From Micractinium sp. NFX-FRZ (lineage: Eukaryota > Chlorophyta > Trebouxiophyceae > Chlorellales > Chlorellaceae), in the NCBI GenBank assembly GCA_029339195.1, contig JAPTJF010000121.1:1-64000 (forward strand): a stretch of DNA of 64,000 nt, in the 5' to 3' direction. The translations under genes and the position numbers were made by a program. Below the pieces are notes generated by a model. The model did not search any database and was not told the DNA's origin. It saw only the letters and a program-made list of their open reading frames with translations. The stretch's first letter is position 1. The number at the start of each line of letters is the position of its first letter. Shown here in pieces: positions 2,643 to 50,400 of this stretch.

Positions 2643-4832
2643 TCACCACCCACTAATCAGCAGCTTTGGCATGTCGCGTGCCAGACTGACCAGTGGCATG
2701 ACGGACCGAGAGGGCAGGTCGCCAAGGCTCAAATGCTGCAGCTCACTGTACTTGCTAGTGATGGTTTTCACCGCGTTGTGATCAAGCTCGAAAAAGGGGC
2801 TGTGCCGGAGGGAGAGGCTGGTGAGATGGGGTGCCAAACCGATGTCGGGCGGCTCCCTCAGCCTGTTGCCGTCGAGCACCAACCCTTGCAGGCCTGCATT
2901 GAAAAGGCAGAAGTGGGAGTGGGGAGCCACTGGCTTGGTGTCCCCTTTGGCACCCGGCTTAAAGTCCCCCGGGTTGGATCCCCCTTGGCATGCTTAAATA
3001 TCTCCCGCCCGGCCGCTGCTGCTGACCCCGCCTACACCGAGCGACATTGTATCACAGCTCTTGAATCTGTCCATGTGCGTATTGCCATGCATACACGGCA
3101 CATCCACTCACATGGAGCGCATGCCAGGGGTGGCACCGACGCCAGCTGGCAGCTGCTGAGCTCAAGCCGCTTGAGACCTGCCAGCTGGCACATGGCTGCG
3201 GGCACGCCCGTCGACAGGTTGCATCTGACCACTGCCAGCTCATGCAGCCCGGGCATGTACTGCAATGCCTCCTGCAGGACCGCCTGCATACTGCCGCCTC
3301 CATGTGCCTGGCAGTCTGCCAGGCTCAACTTGGTCAGCGCAGACAGCTCTCCGGCCGTCTGCCACACAGGCACTGCAAGCCTGCACCTCGTGACGCTGAG
3401 GCTTGTGGCAGCAGCATTTGCGTCGCCCCTCAGCGCCTTCACCAGCTCGCTTGCCCTGCTTGGGCCGCCAGTCAAGATCATGCCCATAATGCTGATGTGG
3501 CAGGGGGCTTGGCCCGTAGGGGAGCATTGGTCTGGGGTGGAGAGGGTGCACCAGCAGGGGCCCTCGTGAGCCGCAATGGGTCCTCCCAGCTGCACAGCGC
3601 ACACGGTCGAGAGGGCACACTGGTGAGCGAGCACCTGCGCAATCGCTCCACAGGCACGTGGCAATGCAACCGCCCAAAAAGCTGCGTTGCGATTGCCCGG
3701 TGTACAGGCGCTGGGGCGCCACAGCGTTCCAATGGAATTACTTTCTCCCAGCCTGAAGACGCCCCAGCTCAACATACAATTGTTCTTCTGGGCACTTCTC
3801 TACACACTCAATGAAACGCACGTCTAGCTGGCAGCACCAGCTTGTAGTTGCAGAAGTAGCTCGCCCCTCTCACCTGCAGCCTAGGCGATGTGAACTCCAC
3901 GCTGCGCCTGACAGGGAAGTTGGACCCCTGCAGCAGCGGCAGGCCTTCTGGTCGTGCCGCGCCCTCTTCCAGCTTCAACACTTCCAGCCGGCTGAGCGCA
4001 GTCAGTGGCTGCACATCCGGCAGTGGCTGGCTGCTGACCATGCTGAGCCAGGTCAGGCGGTTAAGCCTGGCCAGCGAGGCCGGGACGCCAGCTGGCACTT
4101 CAGAGGGGACCAGCTCGAGCGCTTGGAGTGAGGTGAGCTGGCGCAGCGCCCACGCAGTGTTGGAAGGCAGGGCCGGCCTGCTATCGCTGCCTCCATCTTC
4201 ATAGCCAAGCTGCAGGTGAGTGAGGTGCCGCTCAAAGCTCGGCAGCAGGCGCATGGCTGGCGGCATGACCGACTGCGCGGACAGCAGCGCCACGCTTTGC
4301 AGCGGCGCTGGCACTGGCGCGCTGCTCAGGCTCTGCAGGCACTCGGCCAGCAGCTCCTCTCCATCAACGTTCAGCTGGAAGTCATTGATGTGAGGCGCCA
4401 GCTGGCGCAGCATGCGCAGCTTGCCGACCACCCATTCCTCGCGCTCATCAGGGCTGCATGTGTCCAGACAGTCCCCAATCACAAGGTGGTAGCGCCACAC
4501 AGCGGCGGCTGCGGGGCTGTAGAGCACGCGGTGCCAGCGCTTGCAGGTGAGCGTGATGGCGGGGCTGCAGGCAGCAGCAGAGGTTTATTAAGAGGGCGTG
4601 TGTTAGCAAAAGGTAGCAGCATGTAGCCTACAACAGCACCATCGAACGTGTGCCCATTATGTGGCAGTTAAACTCACCCATACTCGTTAACATCTTGCAG
4701 GATCTTCTCGAAAACCAGGCCCAGGCAGGCATCGGGCAGTGCGTGCACATGGGTGCCGGCGGTGCCGCGCTGGTGCCGCTGGCGGCCCGCGGCGGGCGCC
4801 CCGGCGGCAGTCGTGGTGGCTGACCCATCCAT
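2643..4832 (-). CDS. F-box / leucine-rich-repeat protein, copy A
   Basis: Four exons on the minus strand: 4832-4678, 4564-3874, 3589-3112, 2893-2643 (524 aa; phases chain). The start ATG is in good context (GCAGCCATGG). Residues about 35-65 form an F-box-like motif: LPDACLGLVFEKIL, a spacer, then LTCKRWHRVLYSP. The rest is a leucine-rich repeat array with strands such as LQALELV, LTWLSMV, LEVLKLEE, MPGLHELAV, LKRLELSS and LQGLVLDGNRL. Such proteins are usually substrate receptors of SCF ubiquitin ligases in cytosol or nucleus; the target is unknown. The tandem partner is at 6308-8282, with exons of exactly the same lengths. Introns 2 and 3 differ strongly between copies, whereas exon 1, intron 1 and the start of exon 2 are nearly identical, suggesting gene conversion. 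A plain LRR protein is the alternative if the weak F-box is not functional. Confidence 0.82.
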
Positions 4833-6307: not shown

Positions 6308-8282
6308 TCAGTAGCCGCTGACTTCCAGCTCTGGCATATCGCGTGCCAGACAGACCAGTGGCCTGACGGAACGTGAGGGAAGGTTGCCAAGAAACAGGTT
6401 ACGCAGCGCAGAGTGATTTTTAGAGATGGTTTCAACCCCAATGTAATCAAGCTCGAAAAGGGGGCTGTTCTTGAGGGAGAGCCTGCTGAGTCGGGGTGCC
6501 GGGCCGATGTTGGGCAGCGTGCGCAGCCCGTTGCCGTCAAGCACCAGCACTTTCAGGCCTGCACTGGTGAGGCAGGAGTGGAAACACACACGGCTTCAGC
6601 TTGAATTCTGCCACTGGCATGCCTGGCTTCGTTTGCTTTCTCCTGCGATTGATTTCCCCACAGAGCGCTAGGTCTGTCATCTGCCCAAGCGCCTACCCCC
6701 ATGCAAGCCGCGCAACCACTCACATGGAGCGCATGCCAGGGGTGGCACCGACGCCAGCTGGCAGCTGATGAGCTCAAGCCGCTTGAGACCTGCCAGCTGG
6801 CACATGGCTGCGGGCACGCCAGCCGACAGGTTGCAGTTGCGCACTGCCAGCTCCTGCAGCCCTGGCATGTGCTGCAACCCCTCCTGCAACACCGCCTGCA
6901 TACCGCCACCTCCATGTGCATGGCAGTCTGTCAGGCATAGCTCGGTCAGCTCAGACAGCTCTCCAGCCGGCTGCCACGCAGGTGCTGCAAGCCTGCACTT
7001 CACGATGCTGAGACTTGTAGCAGCAGCGTTCAGGTTGCCTCGCAGTGACTCCATCAAATTGCATGCCCTGCTGTGGCCGCTTGTCAAGCACATCCCTCCA
7101 ATGCTGATGATGCAGGGGGCTTGCACGCTAGACGAGGGTTGGAATGGGGTTTCGAGGGCTGACCAGCAGTGCCCCTCGTGCGCTGTAATGGGTCCAGAAA
7201 GCTGCAGCAAGCAAACTCATGAAACAGCATATTGGCCAATGGGCGCCTTTAGAGCAACCTCACAGGCACATGGGGAAGCCATCGCCAACAGGCTGCAGTG
7301 CTGATGTACCGCGCCCTCCTCACCTGCAGCCTTGACGATGTGAAGCTCGCGCTGCGCCTGGCGGGGAAGTTGGCTCCCTGCAGCAGCGGCAGGCCTGCTG
7401 GCCGTGCCGTTGCTTCGCTAAGATGCAGGTGCTCCAGTGCTGAGAGAGCGGTGAGTGGCTGCACATCGGGCAGCGGCCGGCTGCTGACTAGGCTGAGACA
7501 GGTCAGGTGGGTGAGGCTGGCTAGCGCGACCGGGATGCCAGCTGGCACCTCCAAGGGCACCAGCTCAAGCACCTGCAGCCCGGTGAGCTGGCGCAGCGCC
7601 CAGCTGGTGTTGGAAGGCAGGGTCAGCCAGTGTGCGCTGAAAGCGTTTTCATAGCCAAGCCGTAGATGCGTGAGGTGCCGCTCGAAGCTCGGCAGCAGGC
7701 GCATGGCCGCTGGAGTGACGGCCTGCTCGGAAATGTGCAATATGTTCTGCAGCTGGGCAGGCACTGGCGCGCTGCCCAGGCTCTGCAGGCACTCAGCCAG
7801 CAGCTCCTCTCCATCCACGTGCAACTGTAAGCTCTCCAAGTAAGGTGCAAGCCGGCGCAGCATGCGCAGCTTGCTGACCACCCACTCCTCCCGCTCATCA
7901 GGGCTGCATGTGTCCAGACAGTCCCCAATCACAAGGTGGTAGCGCCACACAGCGGCGGCTGCGGGGCTGTAGAGCACGCGGTGCCAGCGCTTGCAGGTGA
8001 GTGTGATGGCGGGGCTGCAGGCAGCAGCAGAGGTTTATTAAGAGGGCGTGTGTTAGCAAAAGGTAGCAGCATGTAGCCTACAACAGCACCATCGAACGTG
8101 TGCCCATTATGTGGCAGTTAAACTCACCCATACTCGTTAACATCTTGCAGGATCTTCTCGAAAACCAGGCCCAGGCAGGCATCGGGCAGTGCGTGCACAT
8201 GGGTGCCGGCGGTGCCGCGCTGGTGCCGCTGGCGGCCCGCGGCGGGCGCCCCGGCGGCAGTCGTGGTGGCTGACCCATCCAT
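6308..8282 (-). CDS. F-box / leucine-rich-repeat protein, copy B
   Basis: Four exons: 8282-8128, 8014-7324, 7201-6724, 6558-6308, with lengths 155, 691, 478 and 251 nt exactly as in copy A (524 aa). The F-box-like LPDACLGLVFEKIL segment and the ITLTCKRWHRVLYSP segment are unchanged. The LRR part has many replacements, for example LKVLVLDGNGLRTLPNIG where copy A has LQGLVLDGNRLREPPDIG, and PLLQGANF where copy A has PLLQGSNF. No frameshift or stop is seen, so both copies look functional. Conserved frame and exon lengths with scattered amino-acid changes suggest selection to keep both, possibly with divergent ligand surfaces (inference). It would act, if the family role holds, as an SCF substrate receptor. 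It sits just upstream of the LigB remnant left by the duplication. Confidence 0.82.
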
Positions 8283-36038: not shown

Positions 36039-39000
36039 ATGGTCAAGGCCCCATCGCTGTGCAGCAGGGTTGTGGCCTTCTTCCTGCTGGTGTGCTTGGC
36101 TGCTGCAGGTACGGTTAGATGAGCCCCACCGCCCGGGGGGGGGGGGGGGGGGGGGGCAGGCAGGATTTCTTTTGGTGCCAAACTACCATTATTTCTTAGC
36201 ACACCAAAATCCACTGAATACCTGCCGTCACCTTCTGTCGCCCTGCAGCTGCCAACCGGGATGCCCCCATCTGCAACTCCGAAGCGGGCCAACAACAACG
36301 CCGCCGCCTGCACGGTGGGCTGCCTGCGTTGCTGCGACTAGCTTGCTTCTGCTCCTGCCTCTGCTGCCGCTGCCGCTGCTGTTGCTGCTGCCGCTGGCGC
36401 TGCCTCAGCCGCCGGCGCCGTCACCGGCGCCGCCGCCGCCGCTGTGCTGCTGCTGCCGCAGCTGCTGCCGCTGCCGCTGCCGCTGCCGCTGCCGCCGCGT
36501 GCGCGGTGGACTGCCTGCTTGTCTGCTGCGACTGACGCGGTGGGCTGCCTGCTGCTGCTGCGGCGGCGGCGGCTGCTGCGGCCGCGGCTGCTGGCGCTGC
36601 GGCTGCTGCTGCTGGCCGCGGCTGCTGCTTCTGCTGCCGCCGCCGCCGCCGCCAACATCTCCAGGCTCCTCTAAATGTGTGTCCAATTCACCAGCAGTTG
36701 CCCTGCATGCCAACCCACCACCCAAGCCACCTGCTCACCCCCCTGCCTGCTGCTGCAGCAACGTGCGCACAATCCTGCAACGTTGTTGACATCAGCAAGA
36801 GCAAGTATCGCCGCGTCAATTCCACCACGGCGCTTGCGCTGTACAAAAGCCCCTGCATTGTCAGCCCGGTGCAAGCCAGCCTGGCAGCATGCACCCGGCT
36901 TGCGTTGACTGGCAACAACAAGTCCCTGAGCAGCTGCCCCCAGTATGGTGACGAACGCTGCTACCTGGAAGTGGTGTACGGCGGCACCAAAGGCTGGGTG
37001 CCCAACTTTGAGTGCTCGTGGTGAGTATGGGGATGGCGTGCACATGTCCCCCCGCTTGCGTTGCAAACCTGCATTCAGCAATTTTTAGTTCAACCTGCCC
37101 AACTGGCTCCGGATACCCAACAACATTTGACCGCATTTTAATGCCCCCGGGTTATCTAAGTGCAGGGACCCGGTTACGCAGTCCTACATTGTTGGTGACG
37201 AGAACATTGCCTGCAACACGCCACCGCCGCCACCAAGAGGTGCTGGCCGTGCTTTGCTGCGCACCACGTATCAGTTGTGTACCAGAGCTTCATACTTGGA
37301 GAGCATTCACCTAACACTTTGTGTTTCATCTAACACTATGTGTTGCTGTTTGCAAGCAGTGCTAACGCTGCCATTGCCCAAACACCACCGGTCGCCTGCT
37401 TCCTGCTGCTGCAGGTTGCCAGTCCAACCGAGGGGTGTTGTGTGAGGGCACGCCAGCTGGCGCCAGGCAGATCACCCTTGCCGATGGTTTAAATGTGTAT
37501 CGGGACGCGTGCAGGTGTGTGCGTGCCTATTACAGTGAGCACGAATGAGTGGGCGGGGCGGAGGGCCATGTGGTAGATGCCAGACTTGGTGGCCGTGTTT
37601 GACGTTGGCTGACTCTCCCATCGCGCTCTTGCATGTTGCCAGCTTGCCTACCCGCTATTGTTTCCGCTGCCACTGCCGCAGCTGGCGGGACTGGTTGGAG
37701 TACCTCCCTCAGTGCTCCACTATCCAGTACACTGGAGCGAAGCGCCTTGGCTGTGATGGGCAGACCTGCTTCGCCCAGGCACGTCGCTGCTTGGCGGCCG
37801 CACATTTTGTCTGGGTGTGCTGCCTGAACGTGCTCTCTGCAGCGCCGCATGCAACGTTGATGCGTGCTCCTGGCTTGCTTTGGGATGGCGTATATAGGAG
37901 CTGCAGCGCCCCCCCCCCCCACCCCCCCCCCACACACACACACACCCCACCACCACCATTGGAATTGTGCCCCCTGTTGCATGTCCGGCAGATACAACGT
38001 CCACAGGGCGGGCTGGCTTGGGTCGCCAACTTCGACTGCGACGGAGGCACAAGCATGCTCGAGGGGGTAGGAGACGGCGCATGCGGTGAGCAGCCTTCGG
38101 AGGTCAGCCGATTTGCGTCGCTGAGCACGGAGCTGCACACCAGGCAACATGGCAGCCTGCCTGCCAACATGTTGCTGATGTTATTGCTTGCGGCCTGCCT
38201 TCCCGTCTGCCTGTCAGCTTGCCTGTCTTGTTATGTTACGTTGCGGATGCATGGCACATGAACACCGCAATTGCCTCCATCCTGCAGCGTGTTTCACGGA
38301 AACTGATGCGAACTGCGTTCCTGAAGAGGCATGTGCTGATGGTGACTGCCGGCGCAAGGTAACCTGTAACTCACATGCCAAACAGCGAGCCGGCCTGGCA
38401 GTCAGCCTGCCATTCAAACATGCAAGATACCAACTGGTCAGCTTTGCTTGCCCAAATCATGTCAGCAACCTGTCCAGGAATTGTCTACCCTGTTCCTTGC
38501 AGGTGGTGGTGGACTCTGCCGCATTATACCTTGCCCCTTGCAGTATGTCCAACATTCTCGCCACCGTGTCCAAGTGCAACACCGTCACATTCTTGCTGGC
38601 AAAAACACGCAGCACCTGCAAGGAGAGCGTATGCTACGTCAAGGTCAGGTTTGCCTGGAGATCACAGTACCCCGGGATGCACTGCAATGCAACACGCCAT
38701 GGTGCGGCTCCTTCAAATGTGGTAGCAACAAGATGGCAGCCCAGCTCAATGCTGGGCGAACTGCTGGTGCATTCAATGGCATTGCCAAGCTTGCCGTTGC
38801 TATGCAGGTGCGCACAGCCGCAAGTGTAGAGGGATGGATGCCTTTGTACAACTGTGGACAGAGGGCCACCAATCTGGGCATGTTGAGCACCAACGCATGC
38901 AAAGCTTCTCCGCCGGCGCAACAGCTTGTGCCGCCTCCACCGCCTCCGGCCACTGGTAGGCAACAGGCTGCCAATGCGCCATGTGTGCACAAGCTGCTTG

Positions 39001-42000
39001 CAAGTAAAACAATATGGACTTCTTGCGTTTCCTTCCTCATCCAATTCGAATCATCTGTTTTTTTTGCTCATGCGTTGTCGCTTCAGCAATTGTTGCAGCC
39101 CTGACTAGTTCCTTCACCTTGGGCGCCGGCGCCGGCACTTTGGGAGGACTAACTGGGGGTTTCATACTTGTTCCTCCTTCTGCTTCCGTCAGTAGGGTGC
39201 CCATCCGAGGCATGCACCAGCTCGTCGTTGGCCTGGTATGATGATGGCTCGCGCCTTCCAAACAAGCGCCTGCCACTCTACAGCCAACCATGCGGGACCA
39301 GCGAGGTGCTGAAGAACTTTACTGTCTGCCGTGAGATCACAATCACGGGCACCAAGGCTGCCAGCAGCTGCCAGGAGGACATTTGCTATGCTCAGGTGGG
39401 CAACACAACATCACCAGCGCGAGCCAACATCATGGCTGTGCAGTGCAACTGGTAGACGCCGTGTAGCCTGGTGCCTGTGTGTTGCTGCGCAAGGTGCCAA
39501 AACCAACCTTTACTCATAGCAATATGTATTTATCCCCACTTCCCACCTTCAGGTCAAGTACTCCTCATCCAGCTCTGCTCTTGGCTGGACTCCCGACTCC
39601 GTCTGCTCGACTGGGGGGCGCTTCATTGACACCCTCAACTCGAGAGTGTGCACAACGCCGCCGCCCCCTCCGCCCTCCCCAATCCCATGTTAGTGGCCAG
39701 TGTGGGCATGCATGACCAGTGTGGGCATGCAACATCCCCCTGCGGCCACCCCCTGTAGTGTTGCAATGTCAGGAAGCTTCCAAGGAAAGCTTTAGACTGC
39801 ACGCACCGGTAACACACCTTGCCTGCACTGGTGTCACCTGAAGAGCTGCATTATGCAATACGTTGCTGTTGTTGCTGCAGATGTGTGCCGAGGTGCCTGC
39901 TCCACGGTTGACATCAGTAACACACCGTTCCGCCGCATGACGCTCAACCACTGGCTGTTCATGGAGCCCTGCTTCCTCACCCTGCAAGTTCTGCTGCACC
40001 GCTGCGAGCGCATCACGCTCACAGGGGTGAAGCAAGCCACGCAGTGCCCAAATGCTGGTGACGTGTATTGTTACGCACAAGTGTTGACTGACTATGGGGT
40101 GCGTTGGGTTGCCAACTATGACTGCACACAAGTGTCTGATGCGGGTTCGATTCTAGACTCTTTCATCGGCCCCGACAACATGGCGTCGTGCGCCGGCGCA
40201 CCGCCCTCTTCTCCTGAAGGTGTGTGTTTTGTGTGTGTGTTGGACAAACTGGGGAAGGCCGCTATGGACCCTGGTCGATAGCCAGCTAGAGTGGCTGGCA
40301 TGCTGGTGGTTGGACCGCCTGGTTGGCCCCCCGCCTGGCTTGTCAGGCCTATCCGCTCACCCCGCTCATCCCAACAGCTCTAGCCACACGCTTCCAGTGT
40401 CCCTTATCCCTGGTGCCTCCATGGCTGCAGACGCCTGCCCTAGTTGCGCCCCCAAAGTGGACATCAGCAAGACACCATACCGCCTGGTGGCTGCCAGCTC
40501 GCCACCGCTCACGTTGCACGAGGCCCCGTGCTCTACCAGCAACAACAAGGGCACGGTGACTGCCTGCCAGCAAGTGAAACTGACGGGCAACCGGGAAGTG
40601 AGCCGCTGCTCAGCCTTTGACAACCGCTGCTACGTGGAGCTTGATCTAGGGGGCACAGCAGGCACAGCGTGGGCGCCGCTCTTTACTTGTGGCACTGACG
40701 CCTCGAGGAACTCGAGCCTCGTCACCACGGATTACCAGTTGTGCTCCTCGCCTCCTCCGCAAACCTCAGGTCCATGGAATGTGGCTGCGTCGCTTGTTGC
40801 ATGGCAGGCGTTCTGGCTGTGAAAGCGTGGCACATTGCATGTTGCCTGTCCGGCGCCTGCCTGCCACGCGTTTGTCACAACCCAAAGGACCCAACGTTAA
40901 CCCTTTGCCCACTCCCATCTGTTGTTTCAGGCTGCAAGACCGCCAGTGGCACGGCATGTGAATCCACCAAATGCGCCCCCGACTGTCTGAGGAAGGCACG
41001 ACATGCCTAGCCAATGCTCGTCTACTGCCGCTTGGAGCAAGCAGCCATGCCCCCCTTGCCTACTATGTGTTCACTCACCTTGTCTCTCTTTCTTTGCAGG
41101 TTCAGTGGAAGGACCTCAACGTGTTTGAGAACAGATGTTCTTCAGGCACCCCGCTTGCAAGATTGCCGGAGTGTGAGACTGTTCTGTACTTGGAGGAAAA
41201 GCAAGGCAGTAGCTGCAACGAGCAAGCCTGCTATGCAAAGGCAAGTGCTGCACCATGTGGAGGTGGGAGTGTGTATGGCAGCAGTACCTGGTGATAGTCA
41301 GGCAAGGCAGCATGGAGGCTACCTAGCCAGCTGCCGCATAGTTGCTTTGCTGCTTTCTTTACACGAAATACGCACGAGGATTACGTGCAGGTGCAACATA
41401 TCTCTTCGGGCAAAGTGGGCTGGGTGCAGCTGTTTGCTTGCGGCTCCAACACCATTGCCCTTGGAGACAGGACGCTTTCAAAGTGCCTCCGCCCACCACC
41501 TCCGCGCCCGCCGCCCCCATGTAAGGCTCTCTGTGTGATTCTGATATAGATTGCATCAAAAAGCAACTAACTCAAGCATGTGCCTGAGCGCCCTGAAACC
41601 TGGATGCATGCATGGAAGTTAGGGCTGCCTGCCTCTCCTTTGCCCGCAGCTGGCATCAAACACCCTCCGCCGCCCACAGGCATGCGCTGTGGTGAAGAAT
41701 GGCATGCCATTGGTGCATGCGCATGGGCCGATGTGCATGCGTTGCATTGATTGCCACGAGAACCCCGCAACCAAACTCATGTTCGTCTTCACATTGCATT
41801 CCTATGCAGCATGCCTTGTGCTCAAGGGCTACAAATTTTACAACCTTAAGGACTCTGAGGCAACCACTCTCAAGTACATGGCAGGATCCACAGTGGCGCA
41901 GCTGGCAGCCTACTGTTCCCAAAACCCAACGTGCGTGGGCTTCAACACCTGGGGCCACCCCAAGTCCAGCCTGCCCTCCGTGAATCGGCTTGTGGACGTG

Positions 42001-45000
42001 GCAAACACTGGCGTTGCGTGTCGCGGCTTCTACATCAAAGGCACGTCTCTCTCGCCTTTGTTTGCTCGCTTGCCAAATGCCGCAGTCATGCACGATGGGA
42101 CTTGCAATTGATGCAACTTGCACTGGCTGGTGGCACAGATGAGCACAAGCGCAACCAGTGCCGGCTGTGGCTCGTCCAATAAAACCATTTTCGCTATGTG
42201 TCCATGTTGCAGTATGCCCTTATGCCACCCCCACTGGCTTCGCTTTCTACCCCAACCTTAATGACGAATCTGGCGCTTCTAGCCCCAACGACCTCCAGGA
42301 TCTCTCCGCCATGTTTGCTGGCAACGTGCCTGAGCTGGCAAAGGCCTGCAGTGCCGACAAGAAATGCGTCGGCTTCAACACCGGCGGTTTCTTGAAGCAC
42401 ACGGTTCGACCTAAGCAAGGGTGGAAAGCAGTTCCAACCTCTTGGGCAAAATACCTTCCTGCCACGTGCAACGGGCTTTACGTCAGGACAGCAGGCACGC
42501 AAGCTGCCCGCAATGTTGGTGGCTGCAGTAGTGGCAGTTAGTTGATGGGATGTAGGCACTGCAAGCTTTGCTTGTGCTGTAGGGATTCGCACACCCCTTT
42601 GCACGAATTTTAAGACCCCTTCCTTTGCCTCCTCACCTGATGCAGCCACGCCGTGCAACACCGGGGCCTTCACTAGCTGGTGCTCGAGCGTCGCTCCCTG
42701 TTGCGGCAACTCTCAGTGCTGCTCGACTACACAGTGTTGCAATGGGACATGTTGTGCAACTGGCATGACCTGTTGCACGTCAGGCAACACCAAGACCTGC
42801 GCTGCCGTTTGTGGCGGTACGTTGGGGTCTTAGAATGGTAGGGCTGTCTTGGGGGAGCCAGGCTTGGCATTGTGCTTCCGTTGGGGTTGGCATCTGGATG
42901 TTGCAGGCGGCAGACTGTTGCACCATTTACCCCACCGCGAGCGCGCCTGTATGGCCTGCACTTGCAGACTGCTCCAAGTGCAGCAGCTGTCAGCGATGCG
43001 CCGTGAGAGGCAAGATAAGGAAGTGCGAGGCTGACCCCGCTAAAGAGGGCAAGGCATGTGTGATCGGCACGGCGGGCGGCTCTTGCAAGCAGGGCCAGTG
43101 CACTCTGCCAGGTGAGCATGATGCATTGCAAGTGAACCTACGTCGAGCATTCCCCCAATGCAATTGCAATATCATCGACACTCTGGGCCTGTCCGCACTG
43201 GCAGCACCGGCTCGAAATCGGGCTCAACATTGGGCGGCGGTTGGGCTGGTCCCGCTACCAGAGTGGTCCGATCGCTCCCCCGCGCTGCTATTTATGTTCT
43301 TCTTGCTCTAGAGGTTATCAGGGTAATCCGCGCAGTCACGCGAAATCGGTGCATACATGGGGGGGACCATGTGAATGTCCTGATTTCACGCCGGTTCGCG
43401 CCGGTGCCAGCTGGTGCGGACAGACCCTGAGAATCACATGCTCATGATGCCAACTTCTTCTGCTACTTGCAGCCTGTTCAGCCTGCAACAGCGGCGGTGC
43501 AGGCAACCTTCAGGTCACAAGCACCGTTGGCGCAAGCTACTTTACCGACAGTTGTGGCAAGCAGCTCAAGGGGACACTCCCCACTGGCGCCATTGTCGCT
43601 GCAACTGGCACACGTGCCTCCTGCAACAACAAGTGCTTTGTGGAAATCACGATGGAGTGGGACATAACGCTACCAGCCTTTGTCGACAAATTCTGGGTGG
43701 AGAGCCACACATGCCGCAGCTCAATGTACGGGCTGGTTCCATCCGGTGAGTACTTGCGCTGTGCACTCCGGCACTGATTCCTGACCACCACCTCGTGCTG
43801 AATTTGGCATGGCTGCCATCTTGTGCCATGCATAAACTCAAGTGCAACTGCATCGCATCACTCGGGCACTGGCTGCAGGTTGCGCAGCGTGCGTCAGCGA
43901 GCAGAAGACATTTGTCTACATCGCCTCGCCACAAGGCACCACCGTCACAGACACATTGTGTCCCGGCCTTATTGCTCCCAACCTCCCGCAAGGCGCCATC
44001 TTGAGTACCACTGGCATCAGGGCGGCTTGCAATGGCGGTTGCCACATGCAAGTTGTTCGTGATCAGCAGCTGTCGTGGGTGTACAGCCAACCCTGCGGCT
44101 CGACATCTCTAGGCCTTGTCAGATCAGGTGCGGAGTGTGTGCAACGCGGTTGTGCGGCAGGATCATAACGATGCCCGCCAAGCTGCACACGGATCAGTCA
44201 CGTGCGCCTGTCAGGCTCTTTGGGGTTCTTTCCATTGAACTCAAACTCCCCCCCACCCCACCCCCCACCCCACCCCTGCTCCGCTGCAGAGTACTTTGAC
44301 TGCCTGGATTGCATCAGCACAGCCCCTATCGATCAGGAGGTTGTTGCCCCTGCCCAGTACTATCAGAGCGCATGCCAGAAAACAGCTGTGGGGGCGCTAC
44401 GCGCTGGCACGATCTTCAAAAGCTCGGGCATCAGGGTCAGCTGCAATGGCAAGTGCCTGGTTGAGTATCCAGTGTCCGTCGGGGTCTCGCAGTGGGTGGT
44501 TCACCACACGTGCGCCACCAGCTCCAAGGGAGCGAAGTACAACCTGGCAAGCACAGGTGAGACTTTTCTTTTGCACTTTGCTTTGTAGCATGCAACTTCT
44601 GGCTTCATGTGACGGCAATACTTGCGCAGTCCCAGCTGGAGGTGGGGCTCACAAACCGCACCTTCATATGTGTTTGTGCAGGCTTGGGCACTTGCATGAA
44701 TGTGGAACCCTACACCACATGGGGCTCCACTGAGCCGATGGCAACAGTGCCTGCCAGCACAGCCTCCGAGTGTTGCAACTTGTGCAGCCAGAGCTACAAC
44801 TGCAAGGCGTGGACGTTTTATGACCCTGACCGTTGGGCCATGGGCTCCGATGAGGCCACTTGCAAGCTGTTCTCGGTCAAGCAATACAAGGCAGGCTTGA
44901 AGAAGGACTGGCCTCCAGGGTTTGGACTCGGATACAATGAGGCGTTTGTGTCAGGGGCGGTCAAGCAAGGCAAGTTGGAGGCCCCACTCTGAATGATCAC

Positions 45001-46454
45001 GATGTTGTTTGACACTGAAAGTGGCATTAGCTCACGCCAAAAATGTGCGCAATGTGCGCGGCTACACGTCGGCCGTGCCTCAATCCCTTACATGTGCAGA
45101 AAAAGTCAACAAATACGTTTGCCCCAACACATGCCACTTCTGCCAAGGTTTCCTCTCCAAAGGCGACGAAACTGCATTCGACAAGGCAAGGTCTTGCAAG
45201 GCGCTTGCCTCTTAAGCACGTTTGTGGTATGTTGTTGTTGCACTTGGCCACCAGTTGTGGCACGGTTGGCTACTTTGTTTGCAGCGGTGCAGGTCGGCCC
45301 CTTTTCCGGGTCATGGTTTAAAGCGGTAGATGCTCTTCCCTTGCCCATGCGACTTCAACCTGCAGGTTGGAGAGCTGAAGTATGGGGACGACACTGATCT
45401 GGTGGCGCTGCTGCAAGTGATTGCCGGCCTATGGTCCACCGCCAACAAGAACCAGCTGGCCGCCACCGCCCGCACCATTGCCGCATCCCCCGCAAACTTT
45501 GCATGCGCCAAGGCGCACATATTGGAGGTCCTGGCGTGCACCGCCAAGTACGAAAACGAGTTTTACGAGAGCGTGGACGACCTTGTTGGCTTCATCCTGG
45601 ACATAGCTCCACCGATTGCCCGCTCCATCAAGATCTTGTGGGGTGAGGGCAACACTTAACTTCACTTTTGGCTTCACTTCTGAGCCGAGGCCAGGAGTGC
45701 CGGTACCCCAACTATTGGTAACTCCTGGCAGCGATGCTTTCCCAGCATGCATCCCAGCCTGGTACCACCCAGCACGGCCCCCAGCCTGAGGCGTACCCCC
45801 CTTGAGGCGCGGTTTTTGCACAAGCGTTGCCGGTCAAATTCTGGGCTCACTTTGCTTGCTTTGCTTTCGCTGCTGCAGCTGGCAGGTCTTTGACCGCTTT
45901 CAAGTTGTTTGCTTACAAGGGCGGCGCTGGCGACGCCCAGCTGCGCGGCATCATGAGTGAGCAAACAAACACGATAATCAACAGCATAAAATCAGGGACA
46001 GTCGCATCGATAATCACCGCCATCACCCGCGCCAACCACAAGTGAGCATGTGGTGGAGCGGGCAGTAGCATGGGTCCGCCAGCTGAACCATGTGGGCAGG
46101 GTCTTAAGCTTGCGGCACAATAACCAAATGAAGCGCACACACCCATTGATTTTAAGCCTGAAATCCACACTCTTTGCTGCTTTGGTGAGGCATATACATA
46201 GGCGCAACTGCCGTACGGGGTTTGCCGCTGCTGACATTGCTTATTGCGCTCCTTGCAGGTATGCGGACCGGGATTCGCTGTATCGCATTGGGTGCTGCAT
46301 TCAGCCCTTTTCAACCATCTACGAGCACCGCAACAAGGCGATCAATGACCTCTCGTGGCAGGCGCAGGAGGACTACCGCTCCTGGATGACCGACTTTAGC
46401 TTCCGCTGCGGCTGCTACGACAGCGATGACTGCCCTGTCCTGACTGTCTTCTAG
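36039..46454 (+). CDS. Giant modular secreted Cys-rich protein (about 1,732 aa), family not recognised
   Basis: Thirty exons, 5,199 coding bases, phases unbroken: 36039-36108, 36249-36314 (least certain), 36759-37020, 37166-37239, 37415-37514, 37682-37778, 37992-38085, 38288-38358, 38503-38643, 38808-38955, 39196-39395, 39553-39688, 39881-40219, 40431-40769, 40931-40995, 41100-41240, 41391-41520, 41650-41679, 41810-42040, 42213-42494, 42646-42816, 42968-43111, 43473-43745, 43879-44127, 44290-44556, 44682-44969, 45031-45185, 45366-45642, 45879-46041, 46259-46454. Exon 1 is a signal peptide (MVKAPSLCSRVVAFFLLVCL). Seven type A modules, two PAN/apple-like modules, two Cys-rich modules, three type B modules, a third PAN-like module, a ShK-like motif and a unique C-terminal domain follow. 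No transmembrane or GPI signal is seen, so a soluble extracellular or wall protein is inferred. Eight introns start with GC. It could be two genes (stop at 44990 if the GC donor at 44970 is not used). Confidence 0.72.
36135..36156. repeat. Poly-G tract in intron 1 of the modular gene
   Basis: About 22 consecutive G residues in the first intron, about 25 bases after the donor. It could form G-quadruplex RNA and is error-prone in sequencing. Confidence 0.9.
36759..41520 (+). other. Seven type A modules of the modular protein
   Basis: Each module is about 100-113 residues with the pattern C-x(1-4)-C-xVDIS-x(n)-YR, then LYxxPC, xxCxxxxLTG, CxxxxRCYVEV, xGxxGWVPxFxC, and a final LC followed by a Pro-rich linker such as CSSPPPQTS or CLRPPPPRPP. 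Spans are A1 36759-37239, A2 37415-38085, A3 38288-38955, A4 39196-39688, A5 39881-40219, A6 40431-40769, A7 40931-41520. Module A5 and module A6 are each one 339-nt exon; A3 and A7 are each split in three, with a middle exon of exactly 141 nt. The core looks like a disulfide-stapled SH3b-type barrel (inference from the LTG...CYVEV...GWV order). Confidence 0.75.
41810..42494 (+). other. Two PAN/apple-like modules
   Basis: Two single-exon modules (41810-42040 and 42213-42494) share CVGFNTxG in the middle, an early Cys before a GYKFY / GFAFY segment, a run AAYCSQNPTC or AKACSADKKC, and a late C-x-GFYIK / C-x-GLYVR. The spacing AxxCxxxxxCxGFN is typical of PAN/apple domains, which bind carbohydrate or protein. 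A tiny Pro-rich exon (41650-41679) links them to the type A array. Confidence 0.6.
42646..43111 (+). other. Two Cys-dense modules
   Basis: Exon 42646-42816 encodes CC pairs (PCCGN, QCCST, QCCNG, TCCAT, TCCTS) in 57 residues, resembling granulin or conotoxin-scaffold spacing but of unknown family. Exon 42968-43111 encodes CSKCSSCQRC followed by a disintegrin/EGF-like C-x-VIGTAGGSCKQGQC end. Both are flanked by phase-1 introns. Confidence 0.55.
43473..44556 (+). other. Three type B modules
   Basis: Single-exon modules at 43473-43745, 43879-44127 and 44290-44556 (each about 83-91 aa) share CxxC at the start, a strand region, xxC, L-x-xGAI or AGTI, the signature TGxRAxCNxKC or SGIRVSCNGKC, then V-x(n)-WV-x(3-5)-C and a closing GLV-S or L-A-S. 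The order C, GAI, TG-x-R, C-N-x-K-C, W-V, C parallels the type A module. Confidence 0.68.
44682..45185 (+). other. Third PAN-like module and ShK-like Cys motif
   Basis: Exon 44682-44969 has TASECCNLCSQSYNCKAWTF and a late CKLFSV, the hallmark order of a PAN/apple module of the kind common in algal and protist surface proteins. Exon 45031-45185 encodes LTCAEKVNKYVCPNTCHFCQ, like the C-terminal half of a ShK domain. Both joins use GC donors. Without the GC donor at 44970 the reading frame would stop at 44992. Confidence 0.55.
45366..46454 (+). other. Unique C-terminal domain of the modular protein
   Basis: Three exons (45366-45642, 45879-46041, 46259-46454) give about 211 residues predicted largely helical: LVALLQVIAGLWS, a conserved-looking AKAHILEVLACTAKYENEFY, DLVGFILDIAPPIARSIKILW, then AGRSLTAFKLFAYK and a Cys-containing end RIGCCIQPF ... 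FRCGCYDSDDC. I know no family. It is unlike the beta-type modules in composition. Confidence 0.6.
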
Positions 46455-47459
46455 CTAACTGCTACTCATGCTGCTGCCATGCAATGTGGGGATAAGAAAG
46501 CGTAAGGAACAAAAGCACCAGTGCACGGAACAGAAATGATTGAAAGCACATATTTGTACAAACTGCAATTGAAGGGAGCTCTGGGCTGGGCAGGGTGACG
46601 AAGCAGGTGACGAAGCAGGGTGACGAAGCAGGTGACCGTCAACGCCCCACTCGGCAAGCAAAAGGCGGCATAGCTGCCCCCTACGCTGTACCTGAATTAC
46701 GCAGTGCCGTACCGGCCAATTCCTGCTTGGCTCCATGGCACACACAGGGGTGCCACATCAACCTCAGGCAAGGCCCCCCCGGCCAAGTTTCACAGCCACC
46801 AGCGACGGGCTGCGCCATGGTGGCACGTGGTGCGCCGTCCCAGCCGTTGTACGCGTCACAACCGCAACTTGTCTAGCTGACAAGCATGCCCACCTTCCGG
46901 CTCATGCCCCGTAGTGCGTTTCTGCTGCTGTCGGCAGTTAGAGCCGAACCTGTTGCATGCGCTCGCTCGAGGGGTTGTGCTGCACGCATGTCTTTGGCGT
47001 TGAACTTACAACGTAATCAAGATTATGTGAGCAACGCAAGTGCGAGCTCACACATTGCCAGGTAGGCCCACACGCAGACATCCAAGCTCACAACTTGCAC
47101 CAGCGGCCAAACCCTCAAGTCCGCTCCCCTCAATGAGAGGGGGACCCCCGAAAGGATGCGAGGAGACAGGTGGGTGTTGGACCTGGCACCAGCTCCTAGA
47201 ATGCTGACGTGGCACCAGCTCAGGACGCCTGTTGTTGCGGACGAAGGAGGGGAACTTCCCTAGGCAACTTGAACCTCAAGTCCAATTGCAATCGTGTGTC
47301 AGATCTTTACACATTCACACACCCGCCAGGGGCCAAACAAGCGTTTAAGAGCCCAAACCCTGTGCTTCACAAGGTTGACGTTCACTAAAACCCAAAATAA
47401 AATAGAATGTTCTCAGAACAATAAAGTACATTCAGAATGCTGGAAATACAGCCCGAGTC
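46455..47459. other. Convergent intergenic kilobase with short tandem repeat
   Basis: Between the modular gene stop and the GH5 stop on the other strand. Positions 46594-46636 hold about three and a half copies of GGTGACGAAGCA. No coding exon is supported. The 47280-47450 part is AT-richer and suits 3' UTR and polyadenylation signals. Confidence 0.5.
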
Positions 47460-50400
47460 TCAGGCCATTGCCGCCACCTGCTCGTCAATGAGCTTCAGGG
47501 TGTCCTGCCAACCGGCACTCCATGAAGCGGTACCGTTGCCAGCTTGGCGTCCCAGGCAGCTGCAAGAGGAAGGAGCAGGCCACACTATGTCATTAGAAAG
47601 CTGCCGAAAACAGGTCAGGCAGCACCAGGCAAGACCAGCAACTGCTGCTGCAGCGGCGTCAGCCCCTGGTGTGGTAGCAGCAGAAGCAGCAGGGAGGCAG
47701 ACGGCAGGCCAGGCACAGCAGGGCAAGTCAAGGCAAGTCAAGGCAAGGCGGGGCAAGGCAAGGCAGCACCTGAGGAAAGCGTCGTAGTTCTGCCACAGTG
47801 CAAACTGGGCATAGAGGGGGGCCACCTCGTCCGGGCGCTTCTGCGGCAGGCAGCAGGCAGGCAGGGGAAGCAGGCAGGCAGACAAGTGTACAAGAGCTTA
47901 GTCGGGGTGCGTCTGCGGCAGGCAGCGGGCAGGCAGCAGTGTCGGAGCTTGGCAGGCAGGACTGCATGTGCCCCCCCTGTGCCAGCCTTCTGCCAGCTGC
48001 CTGCAGCACACAGGCACCTTGCCACACGCAGGCACCCCGCTTGCCTCTGTGTAGGGTATGCTTGGCTGGGCGGTGTAGGGCTGCCCGGATGCAAACACAG
48101 TGTAACCGCCATAGTCTGGGTAGGTTGGCGCTGCAGGGAGGCAGGTAGGTATGCAAGGGGCTTGCCTGTGTGTAGGGTCTGGTGGGCTGTGCTGTGTAGG
48201 GCTCCCCCTCCACAAACACAGTGTTGCCGTCATAGTCTGGGTAGGTGGGCGCTGGAGGGAGACGGGCAGGCACGGGGGAGAGGGAGGGCAGGGGGCATGC
48301 AAAAGCTTGTGTCACGCTGGGGGCACCGGGCAGCAGCACCCCGCTTCTCCCTCGCTCCCCACCCACTCAACCTCCCAGTTGGCACACCCAGCCCAGGCTG
48401 GGTGCCTCCTTGCCTTCTGAGCCAGCACACCCACCTGCTAACATCCAGAACAGGCTGCCGCCGACGTTCTGGCCAGCCGCTCGTGCGGACAGCAGCTCAT
48501 CAAACACCATCTGGCCAAGCAGAGCAGTGGGCGAAAAGGAGGCAGGGAAGTGTTGAGGGTCGGAAGTGGGCCAGCTGCTGTCAGCGTGGCAATGCGTGGC
48601 AGTGCCAGGGCGCCAGGCTGGCGGCCCTCTCTGCCTCCCTGCCCGGCCGAGACCCATGCTTGCACCCCAATTAACCCTACCTTGTAGAAAGCGTTGCGCC
48701 CCGCCACCGGCCGCACTTTTCCAAACTCCTCCACAACCAGCGGCTTGCCAAACTGCAGCAGCAGCAGCAGGAAGTGTGGGGGCGCAGGCGCCAGGCAGGC
48801 ATCATTTAGGAAGGGAGGGTCTCCGAGGGTCTCCTTGGTTGGTTGAGGGTTGAGTGAGTCACATGGGGAGGGGGGCTGGCAGAACACAAGGCAGCAAAGG
48901 TATGCAACTGGCAACCCGCCAACGCTCGGCGGCAAGTCACACGTCAGCACAAACAGCAGGCATCTTGGATCCCATGGCGGTGTGGGAGACAGCAGGCGGC
49001 ATGACACTCATTGCGCTTTGGAAGGCAGCAGGCAGCGGGGCGGCGCGCCTTGGAGGCTGCCAGCAGCTGGGCCCGAAGCAGGTCGCGGTTCCCTTCGATC
49101 TTGCACTCGTCGCTGCACACCCAGGCGGTGTCCGGCCTGCAGGAGGGGGCGGCCAGATGGCAGGCCGGTAGCCTGTCCTCAGCAGCAGCAGCAGCAGCAA
49201 CAGCGCATGCTCTTCCAAGGCAAATATTCACCCACTACGTTCAGCAGCGCCCCTGAATGCATCCTCCCTCCGACCATTTCACCTGCCCCAACCACCCACT
49301 CCCCACGCCACACTACCAAAAGGCGCTCGCTCAGCACAGGCGCAGAGCGGCACAGTCAATGGCAGGGCACGGCATGGTTGTGCAGTCACCCAGGCGGCTG
49401 GCTCAGAGACACACAGGGCACACCGCTGGGCAGCGGGGCTCAGCACAGGTGCACGGTGGCAAAGTCCATGGCAGGGGCGACGTGGTTCTGCAGCCGCCAA
49501 GGCGCCTACTCAGACACAAGCACGCCCCCCAGCGGGCGCTCACCACAGGTGGACGGTGGCAAAGTCAATGGAGGGCGTGGCGTGGTTGCGCACAAAGTCG
49601 GTGCCCTCGCACACCGCTGTGTACGGCATGTAGGCGCCAACGTAGGTGGAGGCTTGCTCGGACGCTGCAGGCGGGGGAGTGTGGCGGTATGTGGAAGCGG
49701 CCTGTGGAAGAGGCCCTAGGGCTGGGTGGGTAGTCACAGGGGGGAGTGGGGGAGGCACAGCACACCGGGATCAGGTGCAGACGTGGCTTCAACTCGCACT
49801 GCTATGCTGCATGCTTGTGTGCTGCAGCTCTGTGGATCAGCCCAGTTCTGCATATCAGCCAACAGCAGCAGCAGCTGGCCAACGAAAGCGGGCGGGCGTG
49901 TACAGACCCCCAGGCACGCCGGGGGGCGGCACCAGCAGCGGCGGGCGGCGGAGCTGACGCGAGGGCGGGTTGAAGCGCAGCAGGTCGGGGGTGGAGGCTC
50001 CAAAGAAGCCCTGGAGGCCGGTGGTGAGAAGCTGGCGGGGTGCCAGCTGCTTGACGTATGCCGACACATCCTCCAGCCATGCCTGCAGCGGCAGGCAAGC
50101 AGCCAATCAGTGAGAGTTCACGAGTCGTATGAGGCTGCGTGGGGACAGCTTGCAAGACTGTGAAACTTGGTGGGTCACTATGTATTCAAAGGCACTTTGG
50201 GTGGACACCCAAACTGGCAGCCCAGTAGATACCCGTCGGACAAGCAGTGCAGGCAGCTCAGCAAGGCAGGGAGGCCAGGGGGCACCTGGCAGGCGTGCCA
50301 GCCAGCGCACCGCCAGCTCAGCCCCCGGCGCACCTGGAACACATCCCCGCTGGCGTCCCCCTTGTTCTGCGGTTCGTTTACCAAATCATACCTGCGGAGC

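Follow-up and report, generated by a model that had tools for sequence, protein, structure and literature searches.

SH3b domains (SH3 domains of the bacterial type) are known mainly as modules that direct wall enzymes of bacteria and fungi to their targets, and exon shuffling is a route usually credited to animals. According to the available part of PMC10394673, wall peptides are bound by SH3b domains both in bacteria and in the muramidases of fungi, and the fungal SH3-like domain, with its two disulfides, has a triglycine in the canonical SH3 zone. Class 1-1 exon shuffling is treated as restricted to Metazoa in the portion available of PMC8001218, where the reason for this is asked, and shuffling of leucine-rich repeat (LRR) exons in phase 2 is described for brown algae in the accessible part of PMC11378527. 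Here, we analyzed a window of 64,000 nucleotides (positions 1 to 64,000 of contig JAPTJF010000121.1, assembly GCA_029339195.1) of the green alga Micractinium sp. NFX-FRZ, which contains a gene for a predicted modular extracellular protein at 36039-46454 (+). With slightly better than even confidence, we propose that this protein is a secreted and likely disulfide-stapled scaffold of ten SH3b modules and one PAN module, likely exon-shuffled, that would act as a multivalent binder of wall polymers or Pro/Gly-rich peptides.

Gene model and splice sites

The gene could be read as 30 exons that remain in phase throughout, with 29 introns and a single stop codon at the end. This model, hand-built and checked by script, reproduces the unbroken chain given in a preliminary description of the same DNA. 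From this reading of the genomic sequence, we infer a single transcript for the 30 exons, the product of which would be secreted and carry disulfides. Exon 1 (36039..36108, MVKAPSLCSRVVAFFLLVCLAAAA) holds the start codon and a signal-like N-terminus, assigned by eye as a signal peptide, and is followed by a short link in exon 2 (36249..36314). The predicted product has 1,709 amino acids, of which 127 (7.4%) are Cys, and the introns of the model range from 104 to 444 bases (mean 182). The 1,732 amino acids stated previously differ only by the choice of GT donors at exons 6, 18, and 20, which adds 12, 3, and 8 residues, respectively.

Eight of the 29 introns (after exons 6, 15, 16, 18, 19, 20, 26, and 27) have GC donors in our model, each starting with GCA. 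With the acceptors of the model, and scanning downstream to the stop and up to 60 bases upstream, no in-phase GT donor was found that could replace GC at exon 15, 26, or 27; such sites lie downstream of exons 6, 16, 18, and 20 and, for exon 19, solely upstream. The GC donor is preferred at exons 6 and 16 because the intron then directly follows a CYxx motif (CFAQ in module A2), the position that it also has in A3 and A4; this is support by paralogy and not proof. This intron has a GT donor in A3 and A4 and a GC donor at the same place in A2 and A7. Introns of the GC-AG type may be frequent in the host genome: they make up 8/29 in this model, and the first intron of a sister gene also fits GCAAGT (see below). 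A literature search at the summary level gave no figure for such introns in green algae. The introns of light-harvesting (LHC) genes, for which 49 exon matches were found in the host genome, include some GC candidates, but GT would be picked in every readable case. Because their number was small and some were ambiguous, they could not serve as a baseline for phase and donor, and an internal control was used instead.

Type A and type B modules as putative SH3b domains

Seven related modules, called type A, occupy exons 3 to 17 on the forward strand. Each was recovered by a profile built from the other six: A1 (exons 3-4, 36759..37239) at 62.2 bits, A2 (exons 5-7, 37415..38085) at 46.0, A3 (exons 8-10, 38288..38955) at 59.4, A4 (exons 11-12, 39196..39688) at 53.0, A5 (exon 13, 39881..40219) at 42.7, A6 (exon 14, 40431..40769) at 59.6, and A7 (exons 15-17, 40931..41520) at 55.8. 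For each of the seven, none of 1000 shuffles with fixed Cys reached the score, and homology among the type A modules thus exceeds chance. Their alignment has eight invariant columns, namely seven Cys and one Trp. Exons 13 and 14 are symmetric (1-1), Pro linkers accompany A1, A3, A4, and A7, and the intron position at the GC donor of exon 6 in A2 is common to A3, A4, and A7.

The type A array matched Pfam SH3_3 with 28.6 bits (cut-off 27), a score summed over the repeats, with the best stretch in A7. Control arrays made from type A, one reversed and two shuffled, gave no SH3_3 match. The full-length protein reached 23.3 bits, below the cut-off, and none of ten A-type or three B-type members was recognised singly at E 10, the signal being spread over the repeats. 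The predicted fold of A6 has six strands (predicted local distance difference test score, pLDDT, 73.1), and SH3b entries lead its Foldseek and VIA results (VIA Z to 7.5), with weak E-values. The nearest solved folds belong to domains that target peptidoglycan in lysostaphin, ALE-1, endolysins, and the muramidases of fungi. Type A is therefore likely a Cys-rich SH3b domain, as judged from the array profile and the predicted fold.

The three type B modules, B1-B3 (exons 23, 24, and 25, each symmetric 1-1; 43473..44556), resemble one another and are related to type A by sequence comparison; they have 6 Cys per module, versus 8-10 in type A. SH3b entries were also on top for their predicted fold, at a pLDDT of 55.1. 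It is less certain, on this model, that type B is a diverged SH3b relative of type A. The previously described set of 7 + 3 related beta-type modules was thus recovered, and all ten are predicted to be SH3b modules, seven with fair and three with low confidence. Searches of PDB sequences with the A and B profiles returned nothing at E 10, and NCBIfam and PHROGs, given the type A part, nothing useful.

PAN, Cys-dense, and C-terminal modules

Exon 26 (44682..44969, symmetric 1-1) encodes a PAN module that passes the Pfam cut-offs of both PAN_4 (31.8 vs 27 bits) and PAN_1 (22.7 vs 21.4 bits). It is the only one of the three PAN/apple-like modules described earlier to be retained: exons 19 and 20 match no Pfam family at E 1 and cannot be aligned with exon 26, and the label was dropped for them. 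These two exons (41810..42494) hold two copies, 34% identical, of an unclassified module (GFxFY...CVGFNT) that, among the loci scanned in the genome, was found only in this gene. In the PDB sequence search, they matched mimivirus R655 at E 0.11 and 0.33, which we judged not significant.

Two Cys-dense modules without a Pfam match are present, as reported, in exons 21-22 (42646..43111). Exon 18 (41650..41679) is short, Pro-rich, and perhaps optional, as its skipping keeps the intron phase. The ShK domain is a six-Cys pattern; exon 27 has three Cys and no Pfam match at E 1, and the ShK-like motif proposed for it was abandoned. Exons 28-30 form a C-terminal unit, described before as unique, that indeed belongs to no Pfam family (best match to a domain of unknown function, DUF, at E 0.11); together with exon 27 and the stop codon, it spans 45100..46454. 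No catalytic domain was detected in the Pfam scans of the protein, which would thus presumably lack enzyme activity. Long SPPPP-type repeats, as in hydroxyproline-rich wall glycoproteins, are absent here, where only short Pro linkers occur. No match to the pherophorin family was obtained, but as no control matched either, this search was uninformative.

Intron phases and sister genes

All 17 introns between modules are in phase 1, versus 2 of the 12 inside modules (the internal control mentioned above; Fisher P 3.3e-6), a comparison in which the borders were hand-placed with phase as a criterion, the intron classes are our own, and tandem duplication would copy phases. This pattern suggests exon shuffling of class 1-1 as the likely origin of the gene.

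The same kinds of modules recur in other genes and orders of the host genome (66.07 Mb in 838 contigs; the gene described here lies on C121). The sister gene on C219 encodes a signal-like start, SH3b, PAN, a module X, SH3b, and a Pro-rich part up to the contig end. Its four introns are all in phase 1, the first with a GCAAGT donor, and its PAN module passes PAN_1 alone (21.5 vs 21.4 bits). The one on C493 encodes PAN, module X, SH3b, and then a long SPPPP tail to the stop. Its PAN module passes the cut-offs of both PAN_4 and PAN_1, and both of its introns, as well as the intron that enters it, are in phase 1 when the carried base is counted (the 0 printed by the script omits that base). Module borders in both genes were placed by hand. 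Module X (Cys, YNxxP...AAxxWCxLLGFD), which follows PAN and precedes SH3b in each sister gene (L036:8999-9259; L037, reverse strand, 1932-2186), is unclassified, with one DUF match at E 0.076.

PAN_4 is expanded in this genome, with 55 exon matches at E <= 0.01, of which 31 are above the cut-off. A point that weighs against exon shuffling comes from ten other PAN exons drawn from these 55 matches: with the best-scoring splice sites, four were called 1-1, and five of ten acceptors and five of ten donors were in phase 1. PAN exons of this genome are therefore not uniformly in phase 1. Six weaker PAN_4 matches, none above the cut-off, cluster at ~47.5-59.7 kb of C388. A PAN-like piece also follows NHL-type repeats (by eye) at C272:52352-52495 (L039/L034), perhaps in another secreted protein. 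A weak SH3_3 match on C283 (21.1 bits, below the cut-off) was judged unrelated by eye, and the A profile did not bear out a candidate on C527 (E 0.035). We also set aside a k-mer bias over 114 kb (AGGCAAGT 9 vs AGGTAAGT 0; AGGCACGT 12 vs AGGTACGT 1), as composition may explain it, given that AGGCAAGC and AGGTAAGC occur 30 vs 0 times.

In the part of the exon-shuffling literature surveyed, we met no extracellular protein outside animals that combines several modules with phase-1 introns. This would not be the first algal exon shuffling, since the brown-algal LRR case is already in print, as described in the available part of PMC11378527. It is conceivable, although we think it unlikely, that this alga independently invented an animal-type, class 1-1 shuffled matrix from its own set of modules, where SH3b units stapled by disulfides would hold on to the Pro-rich chains of the wall like a protein velcro.

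Search for relatives elsewhere

In the protein database, no relative was found for the full protein, the A profile, or the C-terminal half (residues 1-874 of 875) among 7987, 555, and 7992 scored candidates, respectively; spliced proteins of algae may be scarce in this database, and the full-protein search may have been crowded by Pro-rich words. Pattern matches in viral contigs (exons 19-20, B2, and A1/A5/A6) and in prokaryote genomes (A1/A5/A6) yielded no relative by tblastn. The literature on SH3, SH3b, and PAN in algae, together with the part of the exon-shuffling literature covered, contained no such algal protein. The view that this architecture matches no known algal family thus held in the collections searched. 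Orthologues in other algae are nonetheless likely, because these collections seem poor in algal genes. The component parts are of known kinds, and the gene is real and unusual; its description as modular, Cys-rich, and predicted to be secreted is well supported.

Proposed function and alternative explanations

We infer that the protein works as a multivalent binder of wall or matrix. Ten SH3b-like modules, partly Pro-linked, and a PAN module would provide avidity, that is, many weak grips on a repetitive polymer, which could be either the peptidoglycan of bacteria or the Pro-rich wall of the alga itself. Because the sister genes have Pro tails, we lean slightly toward the alga's own matrix. 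The roles suggested in the preliminary description (adhesion, wall anchoring, or recognition of microbes) appear better grounded by analogy with the SH3b-like folds, the solved relatives of which bind walls, and with these tails.

The alternative that survives best, which we regard as possible but rather doubtful, is a cross-linker that would knit the wall of the alga together, its SH3b modules binding Pro-rich glycoproteins of the same alga. The ligand groove on which it depends is presumed, and glycosylation of hydroxyproline could block that groove, which we counted against it. It would fit the Pro linkers inside the protein, the SPPPP tail of a sister gene that also encodes this module, and the triglycine that the accessible part of the muramidase work places in the canonical SH3 peptide zone of an SH3-like, Cys-stapled domain from a fungus. 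We consider it unlikely that the SH3b array instead binds bacterial peptidoglycan peptides, with the protein agglutinating or tethering bacteria near the alga. The nearest solved folds and the PAN_4 expansion are in line with such a microbe catcher, but a common fold does not fix the ligand, no lytic domain was detected, and the Pro tails of the sister genes are of wall type.

Two or more separate genes, for example with a break after exon 26, are improbable. Unspliced, exon 26 runs into an in-frame stop at 44990-44992, and the model needs the eight GC donors, three of them without an in-phase GT. However, GCAAGT after exon 26 is a strong-looking GC donor, the exon 27 frame has no ATG between a stop at 44994 and the exon, and GC stands in A2 and A7 where A3 and A4 have GT. 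A split at 44992, which had been raised before, now seems less likely. It is very improbable that the beta modules are another small Cys-rich beta fold rated alike by the searches and not SH3b, since the array sequence profile and the predicted fold agree.

If the proposed binder is correct, a eukaryotic array of ten SH3b modules without an enzyme would be a new use of SH3b. The intron pattern bears on the long-open question of why phase-1 module shuffling should be special to animals, which a case outside animals, with a distinct set of modules, makes testable in one algal clade. The modules themselves are candidates for binding walls or bacteria and can be expressed individually.

Surroundings of the gene

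The GC content is 0.549-0.602 per kb across 37001-48000, an island that holds the gene, versus 0.64-0.65 in the flanks. The reading frames at 3808-4584 and 7249-8034 (-) closely resemble each other and look F-box/leucine-rich by eye, which is suggestive of local duplication.

Comparison with known systems

The type A modules share with bacterial SH3 (SH3_3 and the SH3b domains of lysostaphin, ALE-1, and phage endolysins) the array sequence profile, the predicted barrel, and the use of a non-catalytic module; the algal gene differs in being eukaryotic, in its ten copies, in its Cys content, in the introns at module borders, and in having no detected enzyme domain. The SH3-like wall-binding domain of the fungal GH24/GH184 muramidases (8b2f and 8b2g, rows 11 and 17 in the type A fold search) is likewise eukaryotic, Cys-stapled, and of SH3 fold, but it is fused to an enzyme and has two disulfides, whereas type A has 8-10 Cys and no enzyme was detected. 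Exon 26 resembles the PAN/apple proteins in exceeding the PAN_4 and PAN_1 cut-offs, but it is a single PAN among SH3b-like modules. Shuffling of repeat exons in an alga is shared with the brown-algal ROCO system, which differs, according to the available part of PMC11378527, in its phase 2, its LRR repeats, and its candidate immune receptors. With the class 1-1 exon-shuffled extracellular proteins of animals, finally, the gene shares the phase 1 of all inter-module introns in our model, but its host is photosynthetic.
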